A DNA stretch of 64,000 bases, from the NCBI GenBank assembly GCA_018292915.2, contig JACVVK020000465.1:1-64000 (forward strand), written 5' to 3'. Below are positions 1 to 25,102 of the stretch, in pieces (the stretch's first letter is position 1; every line of letters begins with the position of its first letter). This DNA is from Batillaria attramentaria (Eukaryota > Mollusca > Gastropoda > Batillariidae). Position numbers and translations under genes: made by a program. The notes below the pieces were generated by a model that saw nothing but the letters and a program-made list of their open reading frames with translations, was not told the origin of the DNA and did not search any database.

Positions 1-2492
1 CTCAGCTGCCTAACCAGCTCCGACGCACTAAGTTATCAACTAAGCATCAGTCGAACTCCGACGCAGTTTGTCAGTGATGCTGAACAGCGATAGAGTTGCC
101 GTTGTTGAGTCGCAGCTGTCATGATTATTCCAGTTTCAGAGCCGTTGCTTGGTTAAAGATTCAGATATCAATTTCGTACATGTTGTTCGAAAACAATGTC
201 AAAATGTATTGTTGGTTGTGTGTGTAGTCTGTGAACTTTTGCATATGACTATATATATACACCCTCTCACCCTGCACCATACAGACACACACATACAAAC
301 ATCACATAGGATAAGTCATTTCAATTTATGAATTTATTATAAATCACCACACAACCACTACATGGAACTAAATTCTCGATTATAGAAATATTTTCAGTTT
401 CAAGTATTGCAAGCATTAAATGGGCAATAATTTAAAGCCCGGATCATTATTATTTTCCTTTTTTTATGATGATGATTGTGTACATGCTACAGCAGTCAAC
501 TGCTACCTGGTACAATATAATGCATATGCTGATATCGCTTCCCCTGTCAATCATCATATTGCAGTGCTATTGAAGCAGATGGAAACCCCACTTCCCCTCC
601 CCTGCTTCACCCTGACCACCATTTATCGAAATGAGTCATCAATGTAAAGTTTCATCACAAAAAACAACAGCCCCCCCCCCCCCCCCAACAAAAAAAAAAA
701 AATCAAAATCACTCCCAGTCTAGTACCTGTATAAATTTTGCTGGTGCATCCCACTGAATAATTTGCCACTCAGAAACACACATGCTAAAAAAAAAATGAT
801 GCCTCTCAGTTTGTATAAATGTATTAAAAACAGTTTGAAAGTCACAAGAATTGGCAAGAAAAACAGCATTACGAATGCGCATCTCTTGCAACCAGTATTA
901 TGTCACATCTGACCCATACTCACTGAATGTATGAATCTTTAATGAGTATAACTCACAACATCCACACACATTCCTGAATGTTCTTCAAAAATAAAATAAA
1001 AATCAAAGTAAACAACAATAAAAGTATAACGCTCATGAAGCCTGCCTGGTAATACATGTAGCTGCAAAATTGTACGTGTAAAACGACTTTAACCAAGCAA
1101 ACATGTTCACATATTCATAGCTGCAGAGACACGACACTTTCCAGTATCTGAGCACAAAATGAACAAATAGCAGGACTTCATGTGCAGGGGAACAATGGGA
1201 AAAGGTATTCGTCCTGAATCATGACTATGGCAAGAACCACAATTAATATATATGTATATACCCAGTATATATATTAACATAAAAAGAAGCAAATATCAGA
1301 ACAGTTATGAACATTTGCACGCACTGTGACCACAACACACCGACTCCAAACTAAAAAGAAAAGTGACCTAATACTGTACTGATGTCGAGCTCCGAAACAA
1401 ATGCAGGTTATGATCCTGGGCACGCTAATCCATACTTTTTTGCAAGTTTGCAAATAAATGTCAACGTAAACCTTCATAACATTTCCACTTCATTTTAAAT
1501 TTCACTTGCTTCAGTTTCTAATTTGACAGCACAGTTTCGGGAGCAACAAACGTTCACATTTCATAGGGATGCAGCAACACGAGACTCCTAGTACATGTAC
1601 ATGTATATATATATAGAGAGACATGTTGTTCTAACAATAAGACCAGTATACAGACACCCTCACTAAAGAGTGTTAATAAATTATTATATAGTGAAAAGCA
1701 TAATGATGAACAAATATTGCTGTGCACTGCACTGAGGCGAAGGCCAAATCAATTTCTCAAAATAATTTCAACCAGAATGATAACGAACCCAATGAAAAAA
1801 AGATGAAATGAAATATGCAGTGTCAGTTTTCTTGGTTTGAACAGCATCTCCATCACTGTCAGGAAAAGTCAGTGCACACGCACTATCTGCATGTTAGTGG
1901 CATACAGCAAGACTTGCATCATTTTGTGAAAGGAAATCAAAACCCATTCTAGTGCATTCCAAATGAGAGCCAGCCACTAGTCTGCAAAACACTGGCTGGG
2001 CTGAGCAACAACGACTGAAGACACAAGGCCACAGTAACAAATAGAAATTTTGTGTGTTTTTTTGTGGGAAACACAAGAGGTAGTGTAAAGATTTCACAAA
2101 TGCATTCTCAGCACACAAATATACCAAAGCATGATTTCACTTACAGTTACAAGGGAAAAAGAAAAGAACAAAACAAACCAGAACACTAAAATAATGGAGA
2201 GGTTTCAATGACAATGAGTTGCCAAACTCAAATCAACAAAAAAGCAAGATAGTAGCAAAGATCTAGAATCTACACAAATCAAATGTGCACCACATGTCTT
2301 ACAAAATTAACTGTTCAGGTAATTGTCTCCAAGACACTGTGCAATTCATGCAGTGCTTGTTGTAGAGTCATGGAACTGGCAATTTGTAAAACATACAACA
2401 TACTGCTGCTGTTGTAAACAGGTCCTACACTGATGATGGAAAGTCCAAGTATGTCTGCTCAGTACTGCTTTAGGCACATCATGTAAGGAGGT
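1..2492. other. Region downstream of terminal exon C; no gene seen
   Basis: AT-rich, with short poly-A, poly-C and poly-T runs and no convincing ORF on either strand. It probably contains the 3' UTR and polyadenylation site of the isoform using exon C and then intergenic DNA. A minus-strand AATAAA occurs near 334-339, but I cannot tie it to a transcript. Confidence 0.4.
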
Positions 2493-2618
2493 TCAAAGCA
2501 TTAATGTACCAAGGATAACAACAATAATGATGATAACCACCATCATGAAGCAAACGAGTAGTATACACAATTTTCTTCTTTGCTGTGTGGCAGTTGCGTT
2601 CATTCCAGGATTGTAGGC
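2493..2618 (-). CDS. Alternative terminal exon C (transmembrane anchor) of the PPxY gene
   Basis: The acceptor is GCTGACTGTTCCAG, phase 0. The 41 residues start AYNPGMNATATQQRRKL and continue as one hydrophobic segment (CILLVCFMMVVIIIIVVILG) ending TLML before TGA. It has the same architecture as exons A and B (basic residues, helix, very short tail) without obvious sequence identity. Confidence 0.62.
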   Translation of the reverse strand, partial: AYNPGMNATATQQRRKLCILLVCFMMVVIIIIVVILGTLML

Positions 2619-5600
2619 CTGGAACAGTCAGCAAACAATACAATCACATTAACATTAGACTAGTCCACATTGTCTGCAGCCCCCTCTCACTCCTCGCATG
2701 GCCCTTTAAAGCTCTATATACCCACCGCAAAACATATCACATGGACAGAAGTACACAAGGGTTGCAGTAAACACAAGAAGTAAACAAGGGTTGCAGTAAA
2801 CACAAGAAGTACACAAGGGTTGCAGTAAACACAAGAAGAAGAAACAAACAGTAACATGCATTCCAATTCTTCAGTTTAACCTTCCAGCTACGTCGCTAAA
2901 AAACTTCTTAGTCCTACATCGTGTAAAACAACTTATCCATGGTTTTTACATAGGTAATTTTCGACTTATTCCTAGTCCTACGTCGTGGGAAACAAATTAC
3001 CCATGGTTTTTACATAGGTAATTTTCGACTTATTCCTAGTCCTACGTCGTGGGAAACAAATTACCCATGGTTTTTATATAGGCAGATTGTAGCTTATTCC
3101 TAGTCCTACATCGTGGGAAACAAATTACCCATGGTTTTTATATAGGCAATTCACAGCTTATTCTTATTTATTGTTTAATTACTCTGCTAATTACAAGTTA
3201 AACAACACAATTTTTGGCATGAACATAGTCAAACCATTTATTGACAAAGTCATGAACTTTCAAAGGTGTGACCTAAATATTGACCGAGATACGTTCATCT
3301 AAAGCAATGTGTGTGCAACTTTTTACCCAGGACGTAGCCGGAAGGTTAAAAGAAAACCACAACAGTTTAGGGAGAAGAAAGGTGATTAAAAAAAAAAAGA
3401 GCAGAGACAAACCTGAGTGACAGAGATTATGTGTGATGAAGTGAAAGGAAGTGAGCACAAAGATCTACCGCTACCTCTCTCCACACTAGAAGCAGCATAC
3501 ATGTAGAAGTTCACTAAGTACAGTGCATTGCATTTTGCATACAGTTCAAGTGCAGATCTGAGCATTAGATACATGTATTAAACATACACTTATTAAAGTT
3601 CACTTCTGGTCAATTTATCCAATTTAGTCCAAGTACTAAAAAGGTAAGATCTGCTATGTACATTTGCACAGTCTGGCTACAAATACTTGCATAGATATCA
3701 CACACATACATGCCCTATTAACAACAGTCATAACAGGGCACATGCATAAAATGTTCAATACACATCATCTGTGTTGCTGCACCGATATGGGTACTGGCCC
3801 AGGTCAATCCACACAGCTTAACTTAAGTCTTCCCTACAGAGTGGTAGATTGTCACTCATGGAAATGTCTCGTTGCTCTAGTCTGAATCACCACTCAAGAG
3901 GATAGAATAACAGCGACAAACCTGTGATAAATTATTACATGTAGATTTCAATACATTCTGATGGACAGAAAATTGACAGGTTTGTGAATAATGCAGCCAA
4001 CTAGGTGCCAAGCACAACACACTTCAATACTGATAACTCACATCGTTGCTGCAATGGCAATGGCCACAACCAAAATAATCACAATGATGGAAATACAAAT
4101 GCCTATGATTATCCCAGTTTTTATTTGCTGTCGCCTTGCTGCTCGCTTCACTGACCTAGTTATAATAACCCCTGTCCGTGTGGTTTGTCTTTGCTGCCCT
4201 GCGGCACGCTGCGTTCGAGCACTTTTACTCTGGAACAGTGCAAAGTTTATGCATGTGTAGTTAAACTGAATTACTTTGTATCCATACAAGTAAAGTACGG
4301 AAAGGTGTAGACTATCTAAGCAGGTAAAATACCATTCTCACGACACCAAATTTAAAACGTTCAAATAAACTCACAGAAAATCCAGTGTGTAAAACATTAA
4401 ATCAAAACTGATAATGAATAAGGTGCCAAAAATTAGGTCAAGGTCTTCAGAGACAGAAGCATTTGTTGTTTATATGGAATACATATCAATATCTTTTCAC
4501 TTAAGAGTATTGACTGTAGGGTACCCACATATAAGTGCATATATATACGACAAAATATGGTATTATTTGCCACCCACATTGTCTTGCTAGACTAAAATGA
4601 GCAGAAATGAAATATTACTAAATTACTGTACGTTGGGGGAATACTGGTCAGATTTTTTTGATGAAATTCAGAAAATGACATCGGTCGAAGCCGTAAAACT
4701 GTAAGCAAGCCTCCAGTGCTTTAGTGCTCGTGTCACTAAAAACAACAGCTATGCCTCTTAGGCCATCAGCTTGCTCCACAGAACACATCAGAAATCCACC
4801 ATTTGCCTGTTCAGTATTCTGCCCCCCCCCCCCAATGCTATCATGCTTTCACAAAACACAAATGACACCTATCATTCTCTCCAGTTCTGTTTTGAAGGTA
4901 ATGTAATGCTGAATCTATTTCCTATAGGTACTGCCATCAAACATGGCACTGGTATCTATATACTGCACAAACAAGTGAAAAAGACAGAAGTAAGTCTGAG
5001 AGTAAAAGAGGAATCCAAAAGGCTGGTGAAGTGAAGGTGTCAAATGACAGCTCTGGTGCTACTGTTGGTTTCAGCAGGGATTTTTTGTTGCTTTTGTGCT
5101 GCTTTGAAAGGAATTGATTCAGTAACAAGAAACTGCAAAATTTACTATTCTGCCTGTGCAAATGTTTGGCAGTAGCAAATGTTATGCTGATGTATTTCCA
5201 ACAGCAAAGAAATGAATAAGTCTGTGAGTGTGTTAAACTGAGATTACAGCATGCGTTTTAATTTACAGTAGTATGATTACGAGTCATGCATGCATCAATC
5301 AATCTAAAAATGCACAGAATTACCCACACGACTGATTGGGAAAACAAAGCCAAGTACATCTAATAAAAACACAAAACAAAAAGGATATTCATTGGCTGTC
5401 TTCAAAATCCCAAACCATAGCAGGCACTCATGCAAATAAGGTAAAAGGCAGCATGCATGTATGATGAAAGCAGGTAAATATGACCCCCCAAAATAGTTCA
5501 AAAGTTCATAGACCTGTTAAGAGAATCTGTCATTTGTTTAAAATTTGAGCGAATTGATTCAGATCAGCTACGATGAATAATGAATGAACCTTGATGAGAA

Positions 5601-8600
5601 ATTTATGGCATTTACCAGTATATTTCACCACAACCATGTGGCATGCAAGAGATTCGCTCTATTGTAACATCTGTTCAAATAAATTGAGTCTTCACAGTAC
5701 ATTTGTCCTGTGTGTTCATTTAAATTTCAGGGTTTCACTCTGAAAAAACAACAAAAGCTACATGTATCACCGAAAGTGGTGAAAGCTACTACACGACGCA
5801 TACATACTTAGAAAAACAGGTACATGATGTACAACAATCAGCCATAGTAAACTAGAACAACTCAAGAGCTGGTTGACAAGAATGACTGAATTGCAAACAA
5901 AAAACTTCAAACAAAGTTGTCCCTGACAATACAAATTTATGAAACAGTACACCGGGAACTACAGTTGTATCACACCTTTGATCATAATGGAAGGTATTAT
6001 CATGACTTAGTTTATAGATGAGTCCATATTTGACTACAGACTAGAATGTGTTACAGTTAAGCACAACAGACACCTCCACTCCTGTCCATCAAATGGGGCC
6101 ATCCCTCAGAAAATAGCCAATCACGTGCTGTGGCATAATGAGCACAACACACGGCATACTGCGGCACACTTTTCTTGCCAGACACTATGTGTCATTTGAT
6201 ATCACTGAAACGTGGGTAGAAAGCAGTAAGTCCATTGGTGTCATTTGTGGAAAAAGACCATTACATACGTATCGCTTTCATCTTGAAATCACCCCTTTTT
6301 CCACAAAATCATGTCATGGATGTACTGTGTTTTGCCCATACACAGCACAGTAAAGGGGGCGGGGCTTTGGCCTGGGGACTTGCTGTGTGGAGCCGTCTAA
6401 CACCTTAGAATCTCCATTTCTGACAAACTTGTTGCTGTATGTGGCATGCATGTGTAGAGCTGGGCACTAGCTCCATTTACAGAACATCAAAGGTCATAAA
6501 AAGAAACATAAGATGAACAAAGTAAGGTTCAACAGTAACAGCAAAAACAAGTATGGAAGAAAGCAGAAAAGTAATTACATCAAACAGATTTCAGGAAAGA
6601 GAAGAAATCGAACAGATGACCATATAGCTTCAAAAACATATACACTGTTAGTGTTAACCTACTGTTCACCATGTCCAATGAAACAAACTATTCACTATTT
6701 TACATGTACACTGTTAGTGTTAACCTACTGTTCACCATGTCCAATGAAACAAACTATTCACTATTTTACATGTACACTGTTAGTGTTAACCTACTGTTCA
6801 CCATGTCCAATGAAACAAACTATTCACTATTTTAGACAAATACATAAAGTTCAACAACTCATATGAGGTAGAAATTCTCTTTAGCTACATATTGATCATC
6901 TCTTATGACATTAGCTGTGTTGAACCTTTTTAAAACCAATAAAATGGGATAACAAAGGGCTGAACAAGCAAAGTCAAGTCTCCTGAAGTCTATTTTCATA
7001 ATAGTAGAGGAACTTCTACTTTCATCACTCACTCAATGTTTACTGCCGTAACGTTAAATTTTGGCCAGGTACAACAAAGAAAAAGAAAGGAGTCAGACTT
7101 TTTTTTATAGTTTTTTTTTTTTTTTGGACTGAATAGTATAGGATCTGAATTTGAATGAAACCAAGCCCCTGGAATTGTGAGGTAACCTAGCTTACTAATT
7201 ATACTAGGACCATCTTTTCTTCTGAGCTTCTTGAGGAGAATCTATTGGATTGAATGCCAAGTTAGTGTGTGCCGATGTAGTATGCAAGTAGAAAACTGAC
7301 AACACCTAACCAACAAAAAGCTATGAAAACACGTTTTGTGCTTATTTTTGGATTTGCTCCAGCAGCCCTGAAAACGCTACAAGGGACATCAGGCACACAG
7401 AAGGTCAATCACTTCAGTCAGACATCACTATAAATCAGGTGTAGGTCCGAGAGCGACAAAAATAACTACAAACAAGACTGTCAGAAAGAAAGTCAGGATG
7501 CAGAAGACGAGGAGGCAGACAATGGCATAGCGACGTCGAGCAGCACTCCCAGAGTACATCTGGCGGGGACAGAGAAAAGGACATGCCACATCTAGTCTAA
7601 CTATCCACTACTGCACTGTACTACATACTATATATATACATCAATATAGATCACCCTCAGTATCATGCTGTCTGACAAAAGAGGACTGTGAATGTGATGA
7701 AACACCACTATATTCTGATTTTTGTTTTTTTTTTTTTTTTGTCTTTTTTTTTTTTTTTTTTAAGGACTCTGTCTTCAGCCACAAAAACTGACCACTCTGT
7801 CCACTAGCAGTAAACCAAGGGTGAGGCATGTTATACTGAAGACAAGCTGTACTTTCAGAGGTTGTGCACAAATATTCACAATACACACATGTAAATTTCA
7901 ATTATCTCTGATTATGAATATATAATTTATATTCAAAGTCATCATTCTGAGACAGTTTGGTTTTGAGGTGCAAATCTCTCTATTTGCGTGTTTGTGTGTG
8001 TGTGTGTGTGTGTGTGAACGCATTAACTGTAAGGTGAAAATACATGCTGCACTCTACATGTGTTAACACAAGCTAATTAGCAGGTAGCTGAGCTATACAT
8101 CATGCCACACTATGTAGTAAACAGTATTGCCATTACACTTAAGAGTGCAAGATGAGGTTTATATCTGTATGCAACCATTAATGTGTAACCAGCATTAGTG
8201 TCAATCAGAATATATTCACGGCCATTGCGCTGCATAGTACAAACTGCCTAACTTCAACCAAAAGAAAAGTACATCACTACGTGTGCAAGCAACACAAAAG
8301 CAACATTCTGCATAGATAGTGTTCTTTCTGTATGTTATCAAGATCCATATCACTGCTGGTTCTGAAGAGACCAATTAAATTTAAACTGTTTTGTACATAA
8401 GACTATCTTGAACATACTGTATAGTACAACACTAAAATCTACTTCACTTACTGTTTCCAGCCATCATGATTTAACAAGAATTGCCTCTGATAGTGACTCT
8501 AGTCTGTCTCAACACTATTCAATGAAGAGTTCACATTGCAGCATTGCATGTTTCTGATGTTTCATGGAGCTTCATTTACTCTTAGAGCTGCATCACTAGA

Positions 8601-9664
8601 CTGTCATTTATCTACATACTCTCTGAGACTGAGTCTCTGCAGTGTGTTGCACTAATCACTACTGTACATAGATTCTGGAGGCGTATACATGCGTGTGTGT
8701 GTTGTTTGGGAGGAGGGATAGAGTGTGAATCACTGAATGGCCCAGTCACATTAGTCATTAGGAATTGATGATAGGTATGTCAGGCACGTTTGAAGTTTAT
8801 TCATTTACAACATTATAAATCTCTTTTCAAACCTTCATTTATCGTACTCAGGGTGACACTTCACACACAAATGTAAGTTGCATCTGGTTTCAAAAATACG
8901 TGTGCCTCAGCGAGGATGAAAGACCACACACAGCAACTTAGCAGCATCTTTCCTTACATTTAATTTGAACTGTGGTATCTGCTGTGTAACCATGAGCAGA
9001 AAAAGAGGACTATACATGTGTAAGCGTAAAAACCCTGCGGGAGGCCCTTCACAAATGTGATAGAGTGAAACACTGAAAATCAACTTAATATTTGAAATAA
9101 GTGCACACACATCAAATTACTAAGGATGTGGATCTTTTCTCTCACCATCACATTTGTACATGTCCCACCAAAGAAGTGCCTCACTCCCTGGGCTAGACTG
9201 CAATGTTTTGGGGCAAACGAGAAAAGGAACATCTACTGACAAAATCTACCAGTACATGTAACAGTATGAATACTGACCAGAGGTGTCGTCTGGTAGCCGG
9301 CGTTGAGTGGATTAACCCCCTGAGATGGTGAATACTGGTAGCCTGGGCCGACCTGTACTGTGGTGTATGTGTACTGAGGGAAGGCTCCCCCTGCCCCTGG
9401 TGCCTGCTGACGAGGTGGCCCATGTCCTGAACTGCTCGCTGATGCCGACAATGAACTTGGCTGTCCGTAGGAGTGATGGCCATGCCCGTGATGTCCGTAG
9501 GGTTGCTGTCCGTGTGCATGTTGTATGTAGCGATGCTGCCCATGTGAGAACTCTCCTGACAGTGGAGGTGCTGACGTTTCATGCTTTGAGCTAGAAGAAT
9601 CAGGTGTTGCGAATCCACCACCACCTTGAGTGACATCCTCGTAAGATGGCGGAGGAGACTCCAT
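2493..9664 (-). CDS. PPxY-containing single-pass membrane protein, three alternative C-terminal anchors (gene-level entry)
   Basis: Gene-level model. The common coding exon is 9664-9278 (129 residues). It ends in phase 0 and can be joined to any of three downstream terminal exons: 7559-7428 (43 residues), 4229-4038 (63) or 2618-2493 (41). Predicted isoforms have 172, 192 and 170 residues. The N-terminal part has PPSY at residues 5-8, a possible WW-domain ligand, then a Ser-, His-, Gly- and Gln-rich low-complexity region. Each last exon supplies basic residues, one hydrophobic segment of about 20-25 residues and an almost immediate stop, the layout of a tail-anchored or type II protein with a cytosolic head. 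I do not recognise the family; LITAF-like proteins share a PPSYEE-type start, but their cysteine motif is absent. No signal peptide is seen. A 5' noncoding exon is implied by the acceptor just before the ATG. Exon structure is well supported by sequence; function is unknown. Confidence 0.72.
2750..2840. repeat. Short tandem repeat, about 31-bp unit, 3 copies
   Basis: The phrase ACAAGGGTTGCAGTAAACAC recurs three times at 30-31 base spacing. It lies in the intron or 3' region between terminal exons B and C. Confidence 0.7.
2880..3345. mobile_element. MITE flanked by TTAA (piggyBac-like target site)
   Basis: The left end CCTTCCAGCTACGTC and the right end, read inverted, CCTTCCGGCTACGTC match at 14 of 15 bases. 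Both ends abut TTAA (2876-2879 and 3346-3349). The element is 466 bp and noncoding. TTAA duplication is characteristic of piggyBac-type transposition; the family is my inference. Confidence 0.72.
2905..3165. repeat. 64-bp tandem repeat, 4 copies, inside the TTAA MITE
   Basis: The string GTCCTAC recurs at 2911, 2975, 3039 and 3103, exactly 64 bases apart, with few substitutions between copies. The array makes up more than half of the MITE. Confidence 0.85.
4038..4229 (-). CDS. Alternative terminal exon B (transmembrane anchor) of the PPxY gene
   Basis: The acceptor is TGCACTGTTCCAG, phase 0. The exon encodes 63 residues: a basic region with many Arg, Gln and Thr (including RSVKRAARRQQIKTG), then a strongly hydrophobic stretch rich in Ile and Val beginning IIIGICISIIVIILVVAIA and ending AATM before TGA. 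It shares the ten bases ACTGTTCCAG at the 3' splice site with exon C. Confidence 0.65.
   Translation of the reverse strand, partial: SKSARTQRAAGQQRQTTRTGVIITRSVKRAARRQQIKTGIIIGICISIIVIILVVAIAIAATM
6639..6835. repeat. 66-bp tandem repeat, 3 copies
   Basis: Three near-identical 66-bp copies lie between terminal exons A and B. Because 66 is a multiple of three it keeps a frame open, but the translation looks like chance. Confidence 0.85.
7428..7559 (-). CDS. Alternative terminal exon A (transmembrane anchor) of the PPxY gene
   Basis: The acceptor is CTCTGTCCCCGCCAG, followed in phase 0 by MYSGSAARRRYAIVCLLVFC, a long hydrophobic run continuing to VALGPTPDL and TAG. The RRRY cluster just before the helix predicts a cytosolic N-side. 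This is the exon nearest to the common exon, about 1.7 kb away. Confidence 0.7.
   Translation of the reverse strand: MYSGSAARRRYAIVCLLVFCILTFFLTVLFVVIFVALGPTPDL
7999..8017. repeat. (GT)n microsatellite
   Basis: A short GT run lies in the intron between the common exon and terminal exon A. Confidence 0.7.
9278..9664 (-). CDS. Common coding exon of the PPxY membrane-protein gene
   Basis: Read on the minus strand, an acceptor (TTTGGTAAACAG) lies three bases before the ATG, so transcription starts upstream in an untranslated exon. The 129 codons begin MESPPPSYEDVTQ and include a His/Gly/Gln-rich stretch around residues 42-68 and a Ser-rich stretch around 69-80. They end GYQTTPL at a donor CTG|GTCAGT, phase 0. 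Reading through the donor would add only 14 unlikely residues before a stop. Confidence 0.75.
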
Positions 9665-9711
9665 TTGCTGTTTACCAAACAAACAAAAAAAACAAAAAAA
9701 ATGCACAAAAA

Positions 9712-9990: not shown

Positions 9991-10930
9991 CAAGCATGCA
10001 GGAGCACTCACAAGTGAAACTGTTTTAAAACATGTTGGCTAAGCAAAGACAGAATTCGCCCATTTAACCTTCCAGGAAACGGAGAAACACCATTATGCTA
10101 TACATTTTCTTCAATTCTTGCTTGTTTTCCAGCAGTTAATACTTACCAAATTCAGTGACAAGAATTAGTGTCAACATCTCAAGACAGGTAAATTAAGTAA
10201 AGACTTAACGATTCAAAATCGGTTCATTATTAAGCCAGAAATCATTTGTAGTAGATCAGTCTGCCTAGGACCAACATCTGAATGCATGGTCAACTAAAAC
10301 TGACTAACGAGGACCAACCCCCTACCCAGTCCCATCTCCGTTTTACACTGCTGGCCGTCCGCAGGTTCCAGGCAGTGGCCCGTTTGTTGTAGGTGGAAGG
10401 GGCAAATCCCGTCATAGTTCTGAGCCTATTTTTCCCATCTATTTAAACGACGAATCACTACGTATTTTTTGGCTTGGAGGTGTACACTAGTTTGTAAATT
10501 CCTGCATGTACATGACAAGTTGTTTAACAAACATTTTGTTTCCCACCCTTGATTTCCTACTCAGAACACACAGCTGTAACTTGCTGCAACTTACCTTATT
10601 CCAAGTTGTTTACAAACATTCCGACCACGTTTATGGCTAAAAAGGTTACCTGTTTCGTGAAAAGAAATCATTCAAGCTGTCCATACTTACTTACGAGAAG
10701 TATTTCCGATCACAACCTGTCTTTGTCTCTGGCTAATTTAATCAGTCCGCCACGAAAACATTGTCCAAAAACGCGAAACTGTCTGTCAGGCGAACTCGCG
10801 TAAATTATTGACCATGATTCTTCTCACCGGAAGTATCCCTCCATATGGGTATTACTTCCCTTGTGACTTTCTATTTCTCCTCTCGAAGGTCAGTCAAGGT
10901 TTACAAAGGTCGCCAGATTCCATCCGCAGA
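9991..10930. other. 5' flank of the PPxY gene; likely holds its promoter and noncoding first exon
   Basis: No coding exon is recognised. The region leads from AT-rich sequence into the GC-rich block that starts near 10.9 kb, on the upstream side of a minus-strand gene. The transcription start cannot be placed from sequence alone. Confidence 0.4.
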
Positions 10931-15212: not shown

Positions 15213-16739
15213 GTAATGCATGAGCAAACTGCCTGAACACACAGTCACACATTCAAACAGGGTGAGAGCGTGACATTTCCAACTTGCTGGTGTGTTTCTG
15301 TACGGTAGTACGGTAAAGTGATCAATGCTGACTCTGTACCTAATACACCTACTCAAAACATTTACAACTTGGTGTTGTGTTTCTGTGCGTGTGGGTGGGT
15401 GTTCAGTTAGGGAGTTTTAACATCCTTTTCCACCACATATGGGGCTTGCGCAGCTTTAAGCCCTAAAAACTCACTCACTCACTCACTCCACCACATATGG
15501 GTGATATCAAAGACAGGACAATGAGAAAAAGGTTAGTACATGTAGAAATATTTGGCCCCAGCCAGGATTCATACTCATGACTTGAACATTGAAAGTCCAA
15601 CGCTTGACAACTCAGCTATCCTGGCATCGTGTTTGTGTGTGGTAGTATGTCACCTGATTGTGATATATACAGTAATATACTACATTTATACTTTATATTG
15701 TTAAACAGCCTATTTCCAGGTTTACTAAGCCAACTTGTGTTTTGAATCCGTTGAGCTTGTGAGCGTTCCTGTATGCTTGAATGATATTAAAATATTATAG
15801 ATCTTGATCTTCAATCTTGATGATAAGTAGAGTTCTTAATGCAACACCATGTTGTTTACAATTTGCTTGAGTGCTCAAACATTTCAGTTCTACGACTGTT
15901 GCTACAACACTTTTGCTTCGTTTACTGGCGGCATCACTGAGTACGCTTCTGTTGGCTCAGTGCTGTTTGAGATGATGACACTGTGCAGATGTCTAACTGG
16001 TATAATGCTACTATTGCTAGAGATCAGAAGAACAGCTCAGAACAATTTAAAATCATGAAGATAGGGCCTTTAACATGTACGACTTGGTGTTGTGTTTCTG
16101 TGTGGTAGTGTGTCACGTGATGAGGATTTACTCCATCCATCCATTGACCACCACGATCCTGTTCATCGTGGACTTGGCGACACACAAAAATGCCAGCACC
16201 GATGTTACGGCAACTCAACATACTCACTGCATCGGGCACACAAGAACCTGTCGGCTCTCACACATTTGGTAGATGTTCGCCACAAAATAGTCAAAGTGGG
16301 AACTCCTGACTATGACGAGCGCACCATGACTGTGAGATTTCAGCGGGTATTCAACCCGCGGCTGACGTTCTCCGTGATGGAACCCAAACACCCTGGGTCG
16401 TGTAATGAAGGGACACGCACATGGGCCACTGTACAGGAAACCGCAGCGACCAGGGACTGTGTTGTTGCCACTAATGCTGGCTTCTATGACACATACTCTG
16501 GAGCATGCTTGGGTGAGTTAATTACCTTTCCCTAATTCCTGTCAGATACAGGGATAACAATTATAATACATGTATACTATTGTAACACTAATAAACTGTA
16601 GCATGCTTGAGTGTTACCCTCTCCATAATTCATAGTAACAGTGATAGGGTAACACTAATATACTGGAGCATTACAAATTTTTAAACCATGACCTGCAATA
16701 GTGGTAGAGTGATATAAAATAAAGTAATAATGATATAGT

Positions 16740-16802
<63 letters not shown>

Positions 16803-19800
16803 GCATACTTGGGTGAGTATCTAAGTCTAACTTGTATCATATGATATAATAACAAAAATAATGTAATGCACAGTAATAACATACACACTGGAGCATGCTT
16901 GTGTTTACTTCTAATTTGTAGTACATATAACAAAAATAAAATAGTATGCTTGGGTGAGTTTACCTATCTCTTTTCTTTTTCCTGTCTGTGATCCACAGGC
17001 TTCAGTCCATCGTGTCAAGTCAGTTTTATTATCCATTTTGGGAATTTGGGCTGCGTCCCCCCGGGGAAGTGCACCGTTGCTGTGCTGCGCCACCCAACCG
17101 ACCTATCCTGATACCGAGTCAATAAAATATATTGAGTAATATTATATTATAGGAATTACAATAAGGATTTGTTATGGATTGTGTAAAAGTGTATAAGGGG
17201 TCAATGTTAGTATTGCAGGTTTAGTAGTAGTAGTAATAGTAATGAGTATGGTATAGGTGCTTTACCAAATTTCATGAATCGGCTCAAAGCGCCGCGAACT
17301 GAACCCAACATGCACGCTCAAGTGAATCACGAGATATTCTCTCACACACTGGACATAAACACATTACAATCACGTGGTGCAAAGTGTCAGCTATATAAAT
17401 TTCGGAATTTAGAATTGCATTTATTTTTTTCAAATTTGGTGGGCTGAACATTTCCAAAGCAGAGGGGGAGGAAGCCGGAGTACCTGGAGAGAACCCCTGA
17501 CGATCAGCCCAAATGAACGGTGCCACATACGAGAAGGAAAAATTCTTTGCCCCTGAGTGGGACTCGAACCCCTGACCTCTCACATTGATGACAAGTCTGT
17601 TCATTAGAACACCGACAGCCCCCCAGGTTTCAGTCCATATTGAGTAAATAAGGGTTCACTGTGCCTATAAGTTGTGTAACAATGTGTAAGCTAGGGGTCA
17701 GTGTTAGTCCTGCAGACTGCATATCATTGGCCAAAGATGACAAAATAGCATTTTTTTTCTGCAGAAAAGGGGTCAGAGTGGCTCATGTGTATTCATCAGT
17801 GAATGAAAACAAGTGTGTTTTCTCCAGGTAACATTGTCTGTGATGGAAAACTGGTGCAAAATTCAGGTGGGATACAGAACGTCCACTTTGGGATCACCAA
17901 AGACGGGAATCTCTTTACAGGGTACGTACTGGCTGAGCATCTATACAGGGTATTTATGGGCTGGGCATCTGTACACAGGGTATGGGCATACACAGGGTAG
18001 TGGTACATACAGGCTGGGCATCTATTCACATGGTATGTAAGGACTTGGCATCTATACACAGGGGTGGGCATCTATACACAGCTACACACAGGGTATGTTT
18101 GGGCTGGGCATCTGCACACAGGGTATGTAAGAGCTGGGCATCTATGCACATGGTATGTTTGGGCTGGGCATTGTATGTGTGGACTGGGCATCCATACACA
18201 GGGTATGTGTGGGCTGGGCATCCATACACAGGGTATGTGTGGGCTGGGCATCCATACACAGGGTATGTGTGGGCTGGGCATCCATACACAGGGTATGTGT
18301 GGGCTGGGCATCCATACACAGGGTATGTGTGGGCTGGGCATCCATACACAGGGTATGTGTGGGCTGGGCATCCATACACAGGGTATGTGTGGGCTGGGCA
18401 TCCATACACAGGGTATGTGTGGGCTGGGCATCCATACACAGGGTATGCATTGTCTGGGCATCTATATGCAGGGTATATATGAGCTGGGCAGCTATACACA
18501 GGGTGTATATGGACTGGGCATCTGTACACAGGATCTGTATGGGCTGGGCATCTATACACACCATATTTCCAGGCTGGGCATCTATACACTCAGCCAATAC
18601 CATGGTGGTGCTTGCCCTCTTGAGAAGGTGTCACGACCCAGTCTTGACTTCCTTCTCACACACACATTCACACACGCAAATAACCACTCGCTCCCATACC
18701 GCTCGCAGCCATACAACACCAGACGCAGAAAACGCTGAGAATACAATACGAAATCTTTACCACAAACACTCAAGCACTTAACTACACACATTTAACACAT
18801 ACAGTAATAATTATAGCACCAGCACTTCCGTCTGTCGCGGAACGCGACAGGCGACTTGATGGTAATTACTGTCTAATTACCAAAATAGTTGACAATGCAA
18901 AACGTGATAACTACAACAGTCTTTGGCACTTAAAACTCAAAAACTATTCTGGTGGCCTGGTCTCTTGACAGTTGGAGGAGTACGTAACAGAGTGTATACG
19001 CCCTTTCTCCCGCCGGAACGGACGCCGCCGTCTTCAAGGTGGAGAAGGCACACGTAGGTAGAACTCTCGTCCCAACTCGTCAGGTGGTCCACGGGTACCA
19101 AGTGGCGTTGACACGATACGCGCCTGCTTGCGTGGAGGTGACACGTCCCAACGTCAGCCTCAATGCAGCCTCTACCCGTCACTCCGGACCCCAGCCAGAC
19201 CGCTGTTGATTCAAAATAGTCCGTGACGTTTCATCAGAAATGGACAGATATGCATGGCATACACACTCAAACGCAACCCCCAACTGCCTTACAATGCGCT
19301 GAGCCACCAGTTAAAACTACCGTCACAGTAATGACAAGTTTTCACTACAGAGAGTTAAACATGCACCTTTAAAGTAACCAAAGTGACAACAGTTACTTAC
19401 ATCAACGTATTAGCAAAATACAATTTAAAAGCTTACCCCTAACATAGGGCAACCGTGTCCTGCGTAAATCGAGCAACAAAAAGGTACGCTCTGTAGCAGT
19501 GGCGATATCACTGCTAACTGCCCCAGTTTATATACCTGTACCCGTGAGCACTACTCAGCTAACTCAGTCCAGATACAGTGGCCCGAGTCGCACGTGGGAA
19601 AAGGGATCCCGGTGACACACGTGCCTCAAAACGCTGTGTCTAGGGAAATAGAGTATTATGTCAGGAAACACGATCCAAAGTATGTTCACACAAAATATTT
19701 GTACTAACGGCTGTGTTATCATCTAATGTTTGTCACCAAAGAAAAACACTGATATTTGGTTCCTGACAGAAGGGATGCCAATGAAAAGAGTGTGCTGTGC

Positions 19801-22800
19801 TTGTGGAATTCTAGATGGTCTATTGTGCAGGTATCTATCGGAGATTGACGTATTCACACACCATTTCCAGCAGCTGGTGGGAGGAGTTATCTGGCTTGTA
19901 CGTGATGGTGAAGTTTATGTTGATCAAAGTCGGGACATTGAGTGCCCAGATACACAGGAAACGGGTAGGTACACAAACTGTGTTTAGCAAACCGTGTCTG
20001 TTTAGTTCTTTTGCAACAGTTACGAAAAGAAAGGTGGAATGGGGGGGGGGGGGAGGAGTGGGATTTCTGTTTGTCAAATCAATAAGAGATGTCTTATATT
20101 TGACCGCCTTTTGTTCCAAGTATACGGTGTGTGTGTCTTTTCAGTTTTGTTATTTGTTTACATTATGAAGTTGTGTTGGTAGCTTGCGTAACTTCTTGTC
20201 ATTCCCAGGGACTCTGGAGACATTTATCAGCTTGTTGTCTTCTCGTTCTGCGGTGGGACATGACAGTGAGGGGCGAGTGCTGATGGTACAGTTGAACGGC
20301 CAAATCAATCTTGGGTGACTTGTCTCTTCTTTCCACATATCCATCATTCTAATTTGGCTTTAAGTCAACACAGGTTACAGTAAACTGTTTTTGCACCTAG
20401 CATTTCCCTGAAGCATGCATTCTGTCTGGTAAAATTCAACACAGGCTTAGAGAACAAAACTTGACAAAATAGAGACTCTCAGGTAAATTGTGGTTTATTG
20501 TTTAAATCTAGCAAATATTGTTTCTCTCTCTATGTCACACTCTTTGGTGCCCAGCTTTTATGTGCCATGTAACTTTGACATATGATGTTGGTTGGTTGTG
20601 TTTTTTCCATGTTGCAGAGCAACCCTGCGTGAGTTTGCATCCTTGTTGAAGAGACTGGGTTTTGTGAACGCCATCAATCTTGATGGAGGAGGATCAGTTA
20701 CAAGCATCATCAATGGGACTCTCGCCAACTACCCTCGTGATTACTGGTCACTTCTACGCTCTCTCTCTCTCTCTCTCTCTCATGCTAATAGCTTTACTGT
20801 TGAGAACTAAAAGTTCATTGTCTTTCTCTCTCTGGCATCCTTTATCCTGATCAGTTCTACTATCTGATCTTGCCTGTCCGTCTGATTGACTTGTTCCAGT
20901 GATGATAATAACAATAATAAAATAATAATAATAATAATAATAAATCACATTTATAAGCACAGTTCTTGAAAATACATCAATGCGCAATGTGCATTCACAC
21001 ATCCCTCACACGCACATAGAACACATCCCTCACACGCACAGAGAACACATCCCTCACACGCACATAGAACACATCCCTCACACGCACATAGAACACATCC
21101 CTCACACGCACATAGAACACATCCCTCACACGCACATAGAACACATCCCTCACACGCACTTAGAACACATCCCTCACACGCACATAGAACACATCCCTCA
21201 CACGCACATAGAACACATCCCTCACACGCACATAGAACACATCCCTCACACGCACTTAGAACACATCCCTCACACGCACATAGAACACATCCCTCACACG
21301 CACATAGAACACATCCCTCACACGCACATAGAACACATCCCTCACACGCACATAGAACACATCCCTCACACGCACTTAGAACACATCCCTCACACGCACA
21401 TAGAACACATCCCTCACACGCACATAGAACACATCCCTCACACGCACATAGAACACATCCCTCACACGCACATAGAACACATCCCTCACACGCACATAGA
21501 ACACATCCCTCACACGCACATAGAACACATCCCTCACACGCACATAGAACACATCCCTCACACGCACATAGAACACATCCCTCACACGCACATAGAACAC
21601 ATCCCTCACACGCACATAGAACACATCCCTCACACGCACATAGAACACATCCCTCACACGCACATAGAACACATCCTAAACCAGCAGGTACCACGGTTAC
21701 ATGAATCAGTGAAAGGCAAGTTGAAACAAATGAGTTTAAGCTCTGAAATATGACAGAGTAGGTTGCTGTCTCACGCTAGCAGGCAGTGATCGAGTTCCAG
21801 ACTGTTGGGGTGGTAAACTGGAAGCCGCAGTCACCAAAGGACGTCAAATTTCTCTTAGAAAAAATTGAGAAGCTCTTAACTGGATGAACGGAGGGTAGGC
21901 GACGGATTGTAGTGCAGAGTGAAGCCGCGGACAAATAAGGTGGTAGCTAGGGTACCATCAAAATGACAACCAAAGTAGCCTTCCAATTTGTTCCCGCGAT
22001 ATCAGACTGTGATCTGACCGTGGTCTGTTGATTTGTTCCAGTGATGACCCCCAATGGAACTGTGCTCGTGAGGTGAGCACTATTCTGTGCGTGCATGACG
22101 TTGAGTGCTCACCACCGGACTGTTCCGGCCATGGCCGATGTGTTGCTGGGGAATGCCATTGCTGGTCACCTTGGTCTGGTCCAGCATGTGACACTCTGGT
22201 CTGTCCACAACACTGCCGCCAACATGGCCGATGTTTGGAGGGTAACAGGACAAGAATTGTCTTCTCTTGCTCGTGTTCATGGTTGCAGTAGCAAAACTAG
22301 AAACAGTTGAAAGAAGTCTGGTCTTGCTTTCCATATAATTGTGTGTATCTCTGCGTGTGCTGGCATCACCGTATAACCAGTGTGAATTGATGATTTACAT
22401 GCTGACCAAAGTTAAAGAGAAGAGCTAGTGACTGACTGCTGTAGACCAGTGGTAACCTGAGCGTGAGTGGTGACAGGGAGGACTAAAAGTTCAGGGACCC
22501 CCAGTAGTCATTTGGGTTGCAGTGTACCAGCCTTATAAAACTCAATGGGAGCCTGAATATTTGTCTGACAGCCCAAACAATTTTGTCATGGTCGGTGTGT
22601 TCTGCTTTGCCATGCTTTGTGAGAGACCAGCAGATGACATGGGAACAGTTTGCACTTGGCTTCACATAGTGAGTGCCGATTTCAGTCAACTGGATTTTTT
22701 TTCTGCTCTGTCTTGTGGATTTCATTAGCCATTTGGGCTATGAGAAATGTAAGATTGGTTTGCCCAGCATGAAATCTTCTTGCATGTGGTGATGGGTGAG

Positions 22801-25102
22801 TACTTTTGGTCCTCCCTGGGAGAACATTGATTCTGTGTTTGCCTACAGTTGGATGTTCTTGTTTTTTGTCAGATGGTTGTCACGGTTTGCATAAAGTCAG
22901 CCTTTTGGTTTTTTTGTCAGACGGCTGTCACTGTGAAGCTGGTTGGCATGGTGATGACTGCTCCCTTGTGTGTGCCGAGGGAACATTTGGCACCAGTTGT
23001 AGCAGTCACTGTCAGTGTAGGAATGGTGCTTACTGTCTTCCTGTGACTGGACAGTGTGTGTGTCGCCCAGGATACTCTGGTGTGCTGTGTGAATCAGGTT
23101 TGTTGTGTATTGTACTCTGACTCATGTACACCAGTAGCCATATGGGATCCCTGTGTGATGTATCTATTGCCTTCTGCGAGATTATGTTGTTCAGTGTGTT
23201 GCGTGTTCTATTCCACTGCTGCAGATAAAGATGTGGAGTTTGTGTGTACATAATGTTTCAGTGTGTCCCTACGGTACCTATGGACAAGACTGTGCTGGTC
23301 AGTGCCGGTGTCCAGAATGTTATTTCTGCGATCCTGTCACGGGTGTCTGCAATAGAAGCATTGCTGCTGAATGTTTCCACGGTACATGTTAAATAACTAC
23401 TGTACTGGCAAATATAACTGTCATGCATTTTGATTACACTTAAAGGAGCACTAGGCAAGAATTTTTACCCACACATCAACCTCGGCTGATTACAGTGACA
23501 AGAGCATGATATACCATTAAGGTTGTTTGTCACTTTGACAACCAGTGAGAAGATTTTGGTAAGTGTAGGTTTAAAAGTAGTGGAGGCATCTGACAACTAC
23601 AGGTAAAAGCTGTGTTGTGATTAATAAGAACAAAACTGATTCCATGAAAATGAGCTACAATGTGAGCCAAAACATACGCCAAATCAACCCAGGGACAAGT
23701 GACACGTTAGTGTGAAACAGACTATAGCTATACTAATGGCTGTCTCCACAAAGTCAAATTTTGGGCCAGTGGTACAAGTCACCACAAACATTACAAGTTT
23801 GCAGAGCTCTAAACAGACTTCGGGAAGACCTCTGACACAGTAGCAGCACCATCTGTGCGAAACACGTTTTTGACACAGTGGGAGTCACGCATCCTGCTGG
23901 ATGTAACTTTAATCATCTGTCTGCTTTGGAAATGTCCAGTCCACCAAATTTGAAAAATAAATGCAATTCTAAATCCCGAAATTTAAATAGCTGAGCTGAC
24001 CCTTCGCACCACGTGATTGTAACGTGTTTATGTCCAATGCGTGAGAGAATGCGTGTGATTCACGTGAGCGTGCGTGTTGGGTTCAGTTCGCGGCGCTTTG
24101 AGCCGATTCATCAAATTGGGTAAAGCGCCTATACAATACTCATTATTATTATTATTATTGTTTGCTGTGTACACTTTCCTGTCAGTTCTACCGTTGTACT
24201 CATTTTGTAACCATTCTTCTTGTGTTGCAGTTGAGGAATGTTTGCTGCAGGCGAGAGTGAACAAAGACAAATTTGTGCCTGACTGCAGTGACCACATCCC
24301 GTGAGTCTCTGAATTGCTGTTACTATTGTGTCATCCTGTCCATTGTTGTTAATGTGTCATCCTATCTGCTGTTGTTATTGTCATGTCCTGTCTATGTGTC
24401 ATCCTGTCATTTGTGTCTCTTCTCATGATCTAGTGTGTCATCTTGTCCGTGTGTCATCCTGCCTGCTGTTATTGTGTCATATCCTATCTACTGTTGTTAT
24501 GTCACCCAGTTCATGTGTCATCCTGGCCCCTGTTATTGTGTCATTATGACAGTTGTTACATCATTCAGTTCATGTGTCATTATATCCACTGTTGTTAATG
24601 TGATCATATGTCTGCTGTTTTGTCATGTGTCATTATATCCACTGTTGTTAATGTGATACTGTGTCTGCTGTTTTGTCATGTGTCATTATGTCTGCTACTT
24701 TGTTCATGTGTCAATATGTTGTGATGTGTCACCCTGTCAATTGTTTTATTTTTTATGTTATATATGTACATGTATTAATGTGTAACAGAACAGAAGTTTA
24801 CCATTATTGGCCTTTGTTCTAGGCACTGGACATGGACAACAGTAACACTGCTTGTCGTGGCAACAGTAAGCATTGGCCTGAATGTGTGGCTTACCTCCCT
24901 TGTGCTGAAGTCCCATGGTGATACAGGGAGCGGTGTAACACGGCATCCTTGCTCCTGTGTTCCACAACAGCCTCCAAGCAAGACTGCTGTCACTGGTGAA
25001 AGATTTGCTATGTGCACTGGACACAAGAGTAGAGAGTGTGGGGGGCAGTCAGATGGCAGGGGATTTGGTGTAGTAGTTAAGGCATCCGACTTCCAATCCT
25101 GA
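15070..25102 (+). CDS. NAGPA: N-acetylglucosamine-1-phosphodiester alpha-N-acetylglucosaminidase-like (gene-level entry, 11 exons)
   Basis: Join: 15070-15212, 16109-16512, 17828-17921, 19831-19964, 20209-20314, 20618-20746, 22042-22241, 22921-23097, 23262-23381, 24231-24300, 24823-25102. That is 1857 bases, 618 residues, with all phases consistent. NAGPA is a Golgi type I membrane glycosidase that removes GlcNAc from GlcNAc-P-mannose on lysosomal enzymes and exposes the mannose-6-phosphate tag. Visible features are a hydrophobic leader (about residues 11-33), the phosphodiester glycosidase domain with NAGFYDTYSGACLG, GGIQNVHFGI and NINLDGGG-like NAINLDGGG (314-319 are NLDGGG), Cys-rich EGF-like repeats (about 337-500), and one membrane helix (about 531-554). 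It is longer than the roughly 515-residue human protein. The vertebrate cytosolic tail with its tyrosine-based and C-terminal trafficking signals is not recognised; the tail here ends inside a SINE. Confidence 0.88.
15404..15632 (-). mobile_element. SINE family S1, copy 2, interrupted by another repeat
   Basis: On the minus strand the same tRNA-like head and body as the 12558 copy are visible. The body is interrupted by a short insert carrying four AGTG units and AGTTTTTAGGGCTTAA. CCACCACATATGG is repeated on both sides of the insert, as expected for a later insertion with target-site duplication. Confidence 0.75.
15815..16062 (+). repeat. Dispersed repeat family R1, copy 2
   Basis: Aligns with 9712-9990 (inverted) and 51396-51625. 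Diagnostic blocks are TACGCTTCTGTTGGCTCAGTGC and a following AGATGTCTAACTGG. It ends about 45 bases before the acceptor of NAGPA exon 2. Confidence 0.75.
16109..16512 (+). CDS. NAGPA: NAGPA exon 2 (start of catalytic domain)
   Basis: The acceptor TTTCTGTGTGGTAG lies at 16108. No in-frame ATG is available nearby, which supports a spliced upstream exon. It encodes a Cys-containing pro-region-like segment, FNPRLTFSVMEP and ATVQETAATRDCVVATNAGF, closely resembling vertebrate NAGPA. The donor is CTTGG|GTGAGT, phase 1. Confidence 0.88.
16742..16800. repeat. (AC)n microsatellite
   Basis: An uninterrupted AC run of about 58 bases in NAGPA intron 2. Confidence 0.95.
17010..17140 (+). repeat. Dispersed repeat fragment R2, copy 1
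   Basis: Shares with 32690-32780 the blocks TTTTATT, TTGGG(G)AA..TTTGGGCTGC, GGGGAAG..GC and GCGCCACCCAA. It looks like the 3' end of a retroelement family, by general appearance only. Confidence 0.55.
17222..17625 (-). mobile_element. tRNA-derived SINE (family S2), near full length
   Basis: On the minus strand, a tRNA-like head with B-box-like GGGGTTCGAGTCCC is followed by a body and the 3' end GCGCTTTGAGCCGATTCATG, then a degenerate ACT/ATT tail. The same 3' half is at 23925-24160 (plus strand), and a 5'-part copy is at 61850-62015 (minus strand). Confidence 0.75.
17828..17921 (+). CDS. NAGPA: NAGPA exon 3
   Basis: The acceptor is TTTTCTCCAG, the donor ACAGG|GTACGT. It encodes NIVCDGKLVQNSGGIQNVHF and GITKDGNLFTG, matching the SSGGLQNAQFGI-type block of the family. 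It enters in phase 1 and exits in phase 2. Confidence 0.9.
17925..18590. repeat. 30-bp minisatellite in NAGPA intron 3
   Basis: The unit carries GGGCTGGGCATC(C/T)ATACACAG plus GGTATGTGT. Between about 18180 and 18450 at least nine copies are essentially identical; flanking copies on both sides are degenerate. Both strands are open in several frames only because the unit is a multiple of three. The array starts at the exon 3 donor and reaches to 35 bases before the LTR. Confidence 0.93.
18629..19768 (-). mobile_element. Solo LTR of a retrotransposon, 1140 bp
   Basis: It begins TGTCACGACC and ends GGTTCCTGACA, so the termini are TGTCA...TGACA. Both sides are flanked by the 5-bp direct repeat GAAGG (18624-18628 and 19769-19773). 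Read on the minus strand there is a TATATAAA box (19534-19527), which suggests minus orientation. There is no gag or pol, so it is a single LTR left after recombination. It lies in NAGPA intron 3, ending 62 bases before exon 4. Confidence 0.78.
19831..19964 (+). CDS. NAGPA: NAGPA exon 4
   Basis: The acceptor is TCTATTGTGCAG, the donor ACGG|GTAGGT. It encodes YLSEIDVFTHHFQQLVGGVI followed by WLVRDGEVYVDQS and ECPDTQETG, the WLIRNG/DETQETG block of the family. It enters in phase 2 and exits in phase 1. Confidence 0.9.
20209..20314 (+). CDS. NAGPA: NAGPA exon 5
   Basis: The acceptor is TTGTCATTCCCAG, the donor CTTGG|GTGACT. It encodes TLETFISLLSSRSAVGHDSE and GRVLMVQLNGQINLG; the S/TAVGHD motif is typical of the family. 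Confidence 0.88.
20618..20746 (+). CDS. NAGPA: NAGPA exon 6 (INLDGGG block)
   Basis: The acceptor is CCATGTTGCAG. It encodes ATLREFASLLKRLGFVNAIN then LDGGGSVTSIINGTLANYP and RDY. INLDGGG is the hallmark of the phosphodiester glycosidase domain. The donor TG|GTCACT is weak, but the join makes a Cys codon at the position of a conserved Cys. Confidence 0.88.
20755..20780. repeat. (CT)n microsatellite just after the exon 6 donor
   Basis: A CT run starts about ten bases downstream of the donor. Confidence 0.8.
20985..21676. repeat. 24-bp minisatellite, about 28 copies, NAGPA intron 6
   Basis: The unit is ACACATCCCTCACACGCACA plus TAGA. It is almost perfectly homogeneous; a few copies have CACTTAGA instead of CACATAGA. 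Because 24 is a multiple of three, long ORFs appear on both strands, but none has coding character. Confidence 0.97.
22042..22241 (+). CDS. NAGPA: NAGPA exon 7 (end of catalytic domain, first EGF-like repeats)
   Basis: The acceptor is TTTGTTCCAG. It encodes DDPQWNCAREVSTILCVHDV, ECSPPDCSGHGRCVAGECHC and VCPQHCRQHGRCLE. The REVSTILCVHD block matches the RQVSTVVCVHE block of vertebrate NAGPA. The donor is GGAGG|GTAACA, phase 1. Confidence 0.9.
22921..23097 (+). CDS. NAGPA: NAGPA exon 8 (EGF-like repeats)
   Basis: The acceptor TTTTTTTGTCAG is a good polypyrimidine site. It encodes GCHCEAGWHGDDCSLVCAEG, TFGTSCSSHCQCRNGAYC and QCVCRPGYSGVLCES, two Cys-rich EGF/laminin-type repeats. A degenerate second copy of the acceptor and exon start lies 49 bases upstream. 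The donor is TCAG|GTTTGT, phase 1. Confidence 0.88.
23262..23381 (+). CDS. NAGPA: NAGPA exon 9 (last Cys-rich repeat)
   Basis: The acceptor is ATAATGTTTCAG, the donor CACG|GTACAT, phase 1 to 1. It encodes CPYGTYGQDCAGQCRCPECY and FCDPVTGVCNRS, resembling the CPxGxxGxxC...CDPxTGxC repeat of the vertebrate protein. Confidence 0.88.
23925..24160 (+). mobile_element. SINE family S2, 5'-truncated copy in NAGPA intron 9
   Basis: Shares GGCGCTTTGAGCCGATTCAT and the TAAAGCGCCTATACAATACT tail followed by (ATT)n with the inverted copy at 17222-17625. The tRNA-like head is missing. Confidence 0.75.
24231..24300 (+). CDS. NAGPA: NAGPA exon 10
   Basis: The acceptor is TTGTGTTGCAG, the donor ATCCC|GTGAGT, phase 1 to 2. 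It encodes EECLLQARVNKDKFVPDCSD, a Cys-bearing linker before the membrane helix. It corresponds in position to the short KQCLQ-containing segment of vertebrate NAGPA. Confidence 0.8.
24310..24745. repeat. Degenerate tandem repeat, NAGPA intron 10
   Basis: Irregular repeats of TGTGTCATCCTGTC/TGTGTCATTATATC and CTGTTGTTA(A)TG with variable spacing. No clean period. Confidence 0.7.
24823..25102 (+). CDS. NAGPA: NAGPA exon 11 (membrane helix and SINE-encoded C-terminus)
   Basis: The acceptor is CTTTGTTCTAG. It encodes HWTWTTVTLLVVATVSIGLN then VWLTSLVLKSHGD, a clear transmembrane segment, then a 60-residue tail. The last 13 residues (about GFGVVVKASDFQS) and the TGA come from the tRNA-like head of a SINE. 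No tyrosine sorting motif is visible in the tail. A different last exon used in some transcripts cannot be excluded. Confidence 0.72.

Follow-up and report, generated by a model that had tools for sequence, protein, structure and literature searches.

The window analysed in this study comprises bases 1-64000 of contig C465 (JACVVK020000465.1) of the caenogastropod Batillaria attramentaria, for which the genome publication refers to Trinity transcripts of previous work (PMC10382545). On its minus strand lies a gene whose head exon encodes a small protein with a PPxY motif and ends in phase 0, and downstream of it three candidate last exons are located, referred to here as A, B and C, each of which begins in phase 0 and codes for a basic cluster, a hydrophobic segment and a stop (Table 1). 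A preliminary description of this DNA had proposed that the same head may be completed by any of three interchangeable membrane anchors; the coordinates, frames, stops and splice dinucleotides of this arrangement were all confirmed, and the sequence is best read as a PPxY head that can be completed by alternative last exons encoding tail anchors.

Head exon and public gene model

The head exon ends with CTG and is directly followed by a GTCAGT donor from position 9277. The encoded protein starts with MESPPPSYEDV, which is devoid of a hydrophobic stretch, and its single PPxY motif, PPSY at residues 5-8, overlaps with YEDV, a YxxV motif. The middle part of the head is rich in His, Gln, Gly and Ser, and the conserved core ends with GYQTTPL. 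The exon has one match in its own genome. No Pfam family was found for the head at the gathering cut-off; the best match, Vac7, was obtained with isoform B and scored 19.8 bits versus a gathering cut-off of 28.7.

The head occurs in three public proteins. BaRGS_00035194 (P0001) of B. attramentaria contains it completely and carries 30 additional codons ahead of the CAA-ATG of the head exon, which stem from an upstream exon and would alter the N-terminus. The other two, P0002 and P0003 (ENA), are 95% identical over the head and perhaps belong to one species. P0002 starts at a Met equivalent to that of the head, and the homology of P0003 begins only at this position. Aligned with the Batillaria head, P0003 shows 48% identity, and P0002 shows 42% identity over 75% of a query consisting of head and exon C. 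No differences among the three proteins occur in the stretches PPPSYEDV, SAPP, PQYTY, GVNP and AGYQTTPL, and PPSY is thus present in the head, in P0002 and in P0003, where it would face the cytosol. Some residues after the PPxY motif, P0002 and P0003 read PSAP, a TSG101-type motif, and Batillaria has TSAP there.

In all three proteins, homology stops at the same Leu, the next residues being VS, after which the sequences diverge. At the protein level, VS after the same Leu is compatible with a GTNAGT donor that was read through as protein. Both the end of the head exon and its phase appear to be conserved. Given a conserved donor, the exon joined to the head would have to start in phase 0, and the only such exons found to combine an anchor with a basic cluster and an acceptor are A, B and C.

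The last 14 residues of P0001 correspond to the intron sequence 9233-9277 (-) immediately after the head exon. The main product may be soluble, i.e., an intron-retained or intronically polyadenylated form consisting of the head and VSIHTVTCTGRFCQ, with anchored forms being minor or absent. BaRGS_00035194 is annotated in this way, the head donor matches seven of nine consensus positions, and the intron contains an ATTAAA at 8964 in addition to the AATAAA at 8801. However, in contrast to the conserved head, the intron-encoded residues after VS show by eye no relationship between P0001 and the pair P0002 and P0003. In addition, P0003 is located on a 12,302-base contig and may be a frame predicted from genomic DNA with the intron still in place. 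A predominantly soluble product is considered improbable, and the end of the public model is probably wrong or reflects a retained intron.

Table 1. Positions of the head exon, candidate exons and associated features in the window.
Feature	Position	Strand	Remarks
Candidate upstream coding exon	10326..10415	-	in public model BaRGS_00035194 (P0001), peptide mapped; followed by GTAGGG
Head exon	9278..9667	-	coding sequence from ATG at 9664; 129 residues; 387 nucleotides; phase 0
Possible intronic poly(A) signal AATAAA	8796..8801	-	could end the intron-retained form P0001; consensus match only
Candidate last exon A	7428..7559	-	132 nucleotides, 43 residues; RRR; 28-residue hydrophobic run; C-terminal PTPDL
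B half of B/C similarity	4188..4249	-	in register with 2577-2638; gapped alignment also made
Candidate last exon B	4038..4229	-	192 nucleotides, 63 residues; 26-residue hydrophobic run up to stop
Possible poly(A) signal AATAAA for B	3237..3242	-	796 bases past B stop; consensus match only
C half of B/C similarity	2577..2638	-	20 intron bases and 42 bases from the exon start; register shared with 4188-4249
Candidate last exon C	2493..2618	-	126 nucleotides, 41 residues; RRK; 25-residue hydrophobic run up to stop
Possible distal poly(A) signal AATAAA for C	333..338	-	2,155 nucleotides past C stop; GT-rich sequence after; consensus match only

Candidate tail exons and their chance expectation

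In A, B and C, the phase-0 frame starts after CAG and is open from the AG to its own stop. The basic charge before the anchor is +3 in A, +7 in B (within the 20 residues preceding the anchor) and +3 in C, and the uncharged hydrophobic runs have a grand average of hydropathy (GRAVY) of 2.89, 2.87 and 3.33, respectively. Five residues follow the run in A and none in B and C, the tail charges being -1, 0 and 0; the anchors also differ in their cysteines and last residues. In tail-anchored proteins, up to about 30 residues follow the hydrophobic segment. Provided that the head is spliced to them, A, B and C would each supply such a single C-terminal hydrophobic segment, and at the level of sequence features the locus contains the phase-compatible exons with anchor and stop, at least two in number, that define alternative last exons.

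The acceptors were ranked among 510 AGs by a rough frequency matrix, in which A, B and C took places 30, 11 and 58. These ranks are fair rather than outstanding, and all three acceptors score higher than that of the head exon itself. A search of the genome with exon C returned one full match and six weak ones (E 0.4 to 4.0). Three further clusters, at about 5958-5904, 2895-2868 and 1045, were hydrophobic and in phase 0 in a relaxed listing and were considered as a fourth tail exon. They were not counted, as their hydrophobicity is 2.15, 2.7 and 2.92 versus 3.17 to 3.74 for A, B and C, and the pyrimidine content before the AG is at most 0.59 versus 0.65 to 0.88. Further exons may lie beyond C, past contig base 1, where the window begins. 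Between A and B, at about 6640-6840 (-), a sequence of about 66 bases occurs three times in tandem, in nearly identical form.

The hydrophobic exons might also be part of other transcripts, with A or C encoding short membrane micropeptides or the exons belonging to an unseen longer gene. In line with this, an ATG directly follows the acceptor in A, and codon 6 of C is an in-frame Met located ahead of the basic cluster. However, B has no Met ahead of its anchor, and each of the three exons follows an acceptor and shares phase 0 with the head exon. Such an origin of the exons is regarded as highly improbable.

Within 900 bases past the stops of A, B and C, no donor-like sites with at least eight of nine consensus positions occur, and at seven of nine there are none past A, three past B and one past C. 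Since donor-like sites past the stops are few, the three candidates look more like last exons than like cassettes. Downstream of B, the possible poly(A) signal listed in Table 1 is accompanied by ATTAAA at 3179 and AATAAA at 3172, and a further AATAAA, at 4125, is situated inside the coding part of B. Past the stop of C, at a distance of 1,550 nucleotides, ATTAAA occurs at 943.

The frequency of comparable frames was assessed by a filter demanding a pyrimidine-rich AG, a phase-0 frame of 35-75 codons, an uncharged hydrophobic 20-mer near the stop and at least two basic residues before it. Applied to both strands of the window, this filter identified exactly A, B and C, and it gave no matches in 20 other 10-kb stretches on other contigs of the same genome (400,000 strand-bases). 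As the filter had been set after the exons were seen, eight further settings were tested against 518,336 strand-bases; 0.036 to 2.5 matches were expected and 3 to 6 were observed (P 7e-6 to 0.056). Four of these settings isolate the trio on hydrophobicity and acceptor alone, with an expectation of 0.29 to 0.86 (P 0.056, 0.013, 0.003 and 0.003), and two do so with at least two basic residues required, with expectations of 0.05 and 0.04 (P 2.5e-5 and 7e-6). The two loosest settings admit other frames as well, yielding six matches versus 2.5 expected (P 0.04) and five versus 1.3 expected (P 0.01).

The T content of the gene strand is 0.341, as opposed to 0.282 in the stretches used for comparison, and a high T content promotes hydrophobic codons. 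Therefore, Markov models of the region itself were also run, with the exons removed, at orders 1-3 and under four settings with 500 runs each. Under the loosest setting, 2 to 9 of 500 runs reached at least three matches; the next setting gave none or one such run in 500, and the other two gave none. Thus, the trio is unlikely to have arisen by chance, and much of the force of this result comes from the basic clusters. Among ten splicing-factor motifs sought in the region, seven exceeded the genome background (P<0.05), one was far below it and two were near it; as the strand is T-rich and composition was not corrected for, this result was not used.

The ten identical bases at the 3' splice sites of B and C, to which attention had been drawn earlier, proved to be distinctive: ACTGTTCCAG, the last ten intron bases, is found only at these two acceptors on both strands of the window, and the identity of the ten bases between B and C has a P of 0.00075. 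The similarity extends into the exons, where 22 of the first 42 bases are identical, without gaps and in frame (P 0.001); both P values are based on 20,000 random pairs drawn from 3241 acceptor-like sites, with three exon pairs tested. In addition, B and C both read Gln-Gln-Arg at codons 12-14. A homology of A to B or C was rejected, as the DNA at the acceptors is no closer than in random pairs. For the protein likeness, simple shuffles gave P values of 0.003 (A-B), 0.0025 (A-C) and 0.0015 (B-C), versus 0.12, 0.13 and 0.07 after block shuffling, in which basic and hydrophobic blocks were shuffled apart. As the protein alignment fails block shuffling, the case for a duplication rests on the DNA in register, and this suggests that B and C derive from an old duplication of a last exon, after which the extra basic stretch of B may have been gained or lost.

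Several observations weigh against a gene with alternative tail anchors. The public gene model omits A, B and C and reads on into the intron. No homologue of a tail was found: protein searches with head and C (two of 102 candidates confirmed), with pieces of the P0002 head together with C and A (two of 66) and with compact head and tail pieces (one of eight) returned heads only, and P0001, P0002 and P0003 were the only candidates confirmed overall. These searches, however, depend on several shared 5-residue words. Scans for stray host DNA in prokaryote and viral contigs produced 24, 13 and 58 pattern matches, none of which was confirmed. Furthermore, neither AATAAA nor ATTAAA occurs for about 2.2 kb past the stop of A, the first being ATTAAA at 5262 with weaker variants only before it, and A is for this reason the weakest of the three as a last exon. 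Among the settings that select the trio only, the least favourable one gives a weak result (P 0.056), and the tail protein similarity under simple shuffles (P 0.0015 to 0.003) is not significant under block shuffling (P 0.07 to 0.13).

Some of these points would fit a situation in which the head is joined to no more than two of the exons, C being the likeliest and B perhaps the second, the remainder being decayed or chance frames; the gene would then encode an ordinary tail-anchored PPxY protein, which might be subject to a two-way switch. The distal poly(A) context is most favourable for C, a close canonical poly(A) signal is missing for A, and B and C seem to be of common origin, a duplicated exon being able to remain silent. 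In addition, 0.3 to 0.9 phase-0 hydrophobic frames behind an acceptor are expected per 9.3 kb if a basic cluster is not required. However, A, B and C all combine an acceptor, a basic cluster, an uncharged run and a prompt stop, for which the expectation is at most about 0.05, and a duplication of B and C would mean that neither frame has closed since that event. The use of fewer than three exons is possible but rather unlikely. We consider it moderately probable that the head is finished by one of three alternative last exons, each encoding a full C-terminal anchor. The annotation has probably missed a gene here whose alternative last exons encode tail anchors, and the balance tilts slightly towards all three exons being used.

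Predicted membrane destinations and known systems

It had been suggested earlier that the exchange of anchors could send the head to different membranes. According to a published rule, high hydrophobicity together with a low tail charge directs mammalian tail-anchored proteins other than SNAREs to the endoplasmic reticulum (ER), and positive tails favour mitochondria or peroxisomes (PMC5450235). As A, B and C are very hydrophobic (GRAVY 2.9 to 3.3) and have no positive C-terminal tail (charges -1, 0 and 0), entry into the ER and the secretory route is predicted for all of them. A choice between organelles such as the ER and the mitochondrion is therefore unlikely on sequence grounds, and this part of the suggestion was not upheld. 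A difference within the endomembrane system is likelier, and the better guess is that the anchors specify a station on the secretory or endosomal route by their length and flanking charge.

It had further been remarked that no described gene with this exact layout was known to the author. With two anchor exons, however, the layout is known. Mammalian SLMAP likewise has separate C-terminal exons that each encode a single-helix tail anchor and are subject to alternative splicing, exon XXIII encoding TA1 and exon XXIV encoding TA2; the anchors lack sequence homology and differ in targeting (PMC2712456). SLMAP differs from the snail gene in having two anchors and a largely coiled-coil head in place of a PPxY head, and the lower hydrophobicity of TA2, which is also targeted to mitochondria (PMC2712456), contrasts with the high hydrophobicity of the three snail anchors. 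Also in the syntaxin gene unc-64 of Caenorhabditis elegans, alternative exons, 8a and 8b, change the C-terminal membrane anchor; here, there are two exons and a SNARE head, and the differing part is the last 14 of 25 anchor residues (PMC4946901). Both UNC-64 isoforms are located at the plasma membrane, locomotion is rescued by UNC-64A only, and axon regrowth in hypomorphs is rescued by either isoform (PMC4946901). Isoforms residing at the same membrane thus differ in function, indicating that exchanging an anchor can have consequences even if the membrane stays the same.

Further related cases are known. By splicing, DMPK joins one head to two tail anchors or a short cytosolic tail; its head, however, is a kinase, its tails comprise two membrane tails and one soluble tail, and the human anchors are both mitochondrial (PMC2778554). 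C-terminal splicing also redirects the tail-anchored FALDH-ER and FALDH-PO (ALDH3A2), where the hydrophobic segment is kept and the charged tail is changed (PMC5450235), whereas the snail exons exchange the segment and leave almost no tail, and likewise a splice isoform of VAMP-1, for which the tail charge of VAMP-1B is discussed (PMC4592070). Similar to the predicted snail protein, the herpesvirus proteins UL56 and UL42 are anchored at the C-terminus and carry cytoplasmic PPxY motifs; like the cellular Ndfip1/2, they bind a Nedd4-family ligase and recruit it to specific sites within the cell (PMC5849660). In contrast to the snail gene, no alternative anchors are mentioned for UL56, UL42 or Ndfip in the passages considered (PMC5849660), and no sequence kinship with the snail protein is claimed here. 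A literature search identified neither a PPxY protein with alternative anchors nor a three-anchor gene among the matches listed, which were judged by titles and abstract openings and amount to weak evidence of absence. Thus, the swapping of tail anchors by splicing and PPxY-bearing tail-anchored Nedd4 adaptors are each known, and their combination was not found among the matches listed.

Based on these comparisons, a mechanism can be proposed in which one exon encodes a cytosolic and probably disordered PPxY head, which splicing would join to A, B or C to give a tail-anchored adaptor. The adaptor would present PPSYEDV to WW domains on the cytosolic face of an endomembrane, with Nedd4-family E3 ligases as the obvious partners. 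As the anchors differ in length, juxtamembrane charge, cysteines and last residues, the choice of the last exon, coupled to that of the poly(A) site, could set the place of ligase recruitment within the system of ER, Golgi, plasma membrane and endosomes. In its most far-reaching form, which is tentative and in our view unlikely, the gene would act as a three-position membrane-address switch that sends the same head to three membrane domains, B and C having arisen by duplication and A having been gained independently.

Vertebrates use several separate PPxY membrane adaptors, and the Ndfip proteins cross the membrane several times. If the three-position switch holds, one snail gene would do the work of several such vertebrate adaptors. 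If all three exons are used, the gene would provide a natural experiment in which only the anchor varies and from which the effects of anchor length, juxtamembrane charge and last residue on the sorting of a ligase recruiter may be read; it would also constitute a case of anchor-exon duplication, B and C being alike at their 5' ends, with a bearing on the origin of alternative last exons. With one or two exons in use, it would be an ordinary tail-anchored PPxY protein overlooked by public annotation.

Other features of the window

Long tandem repeats extend over 18000-18480 and 20950-21750 and are open in several frames on both strands. EGF-like frames are present at 22013-23120 (+), where Pfam returned EGF families only. 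The frame at 16074-16535, for which Pfam gave nothing, reads like the uncovering enzyme NAGPA and perhaps belongs to the same gene as the EGF-like frames. A MADD death domain was identified at 61511-61840 (+; E 1.1e-31), and a DENN-like frame at 37277-37564 (+) scored 21.0 bits, which is under the cut-off of 23.4. If both are part of one MADD-like gene, it extends over a large portion of the window's right half.

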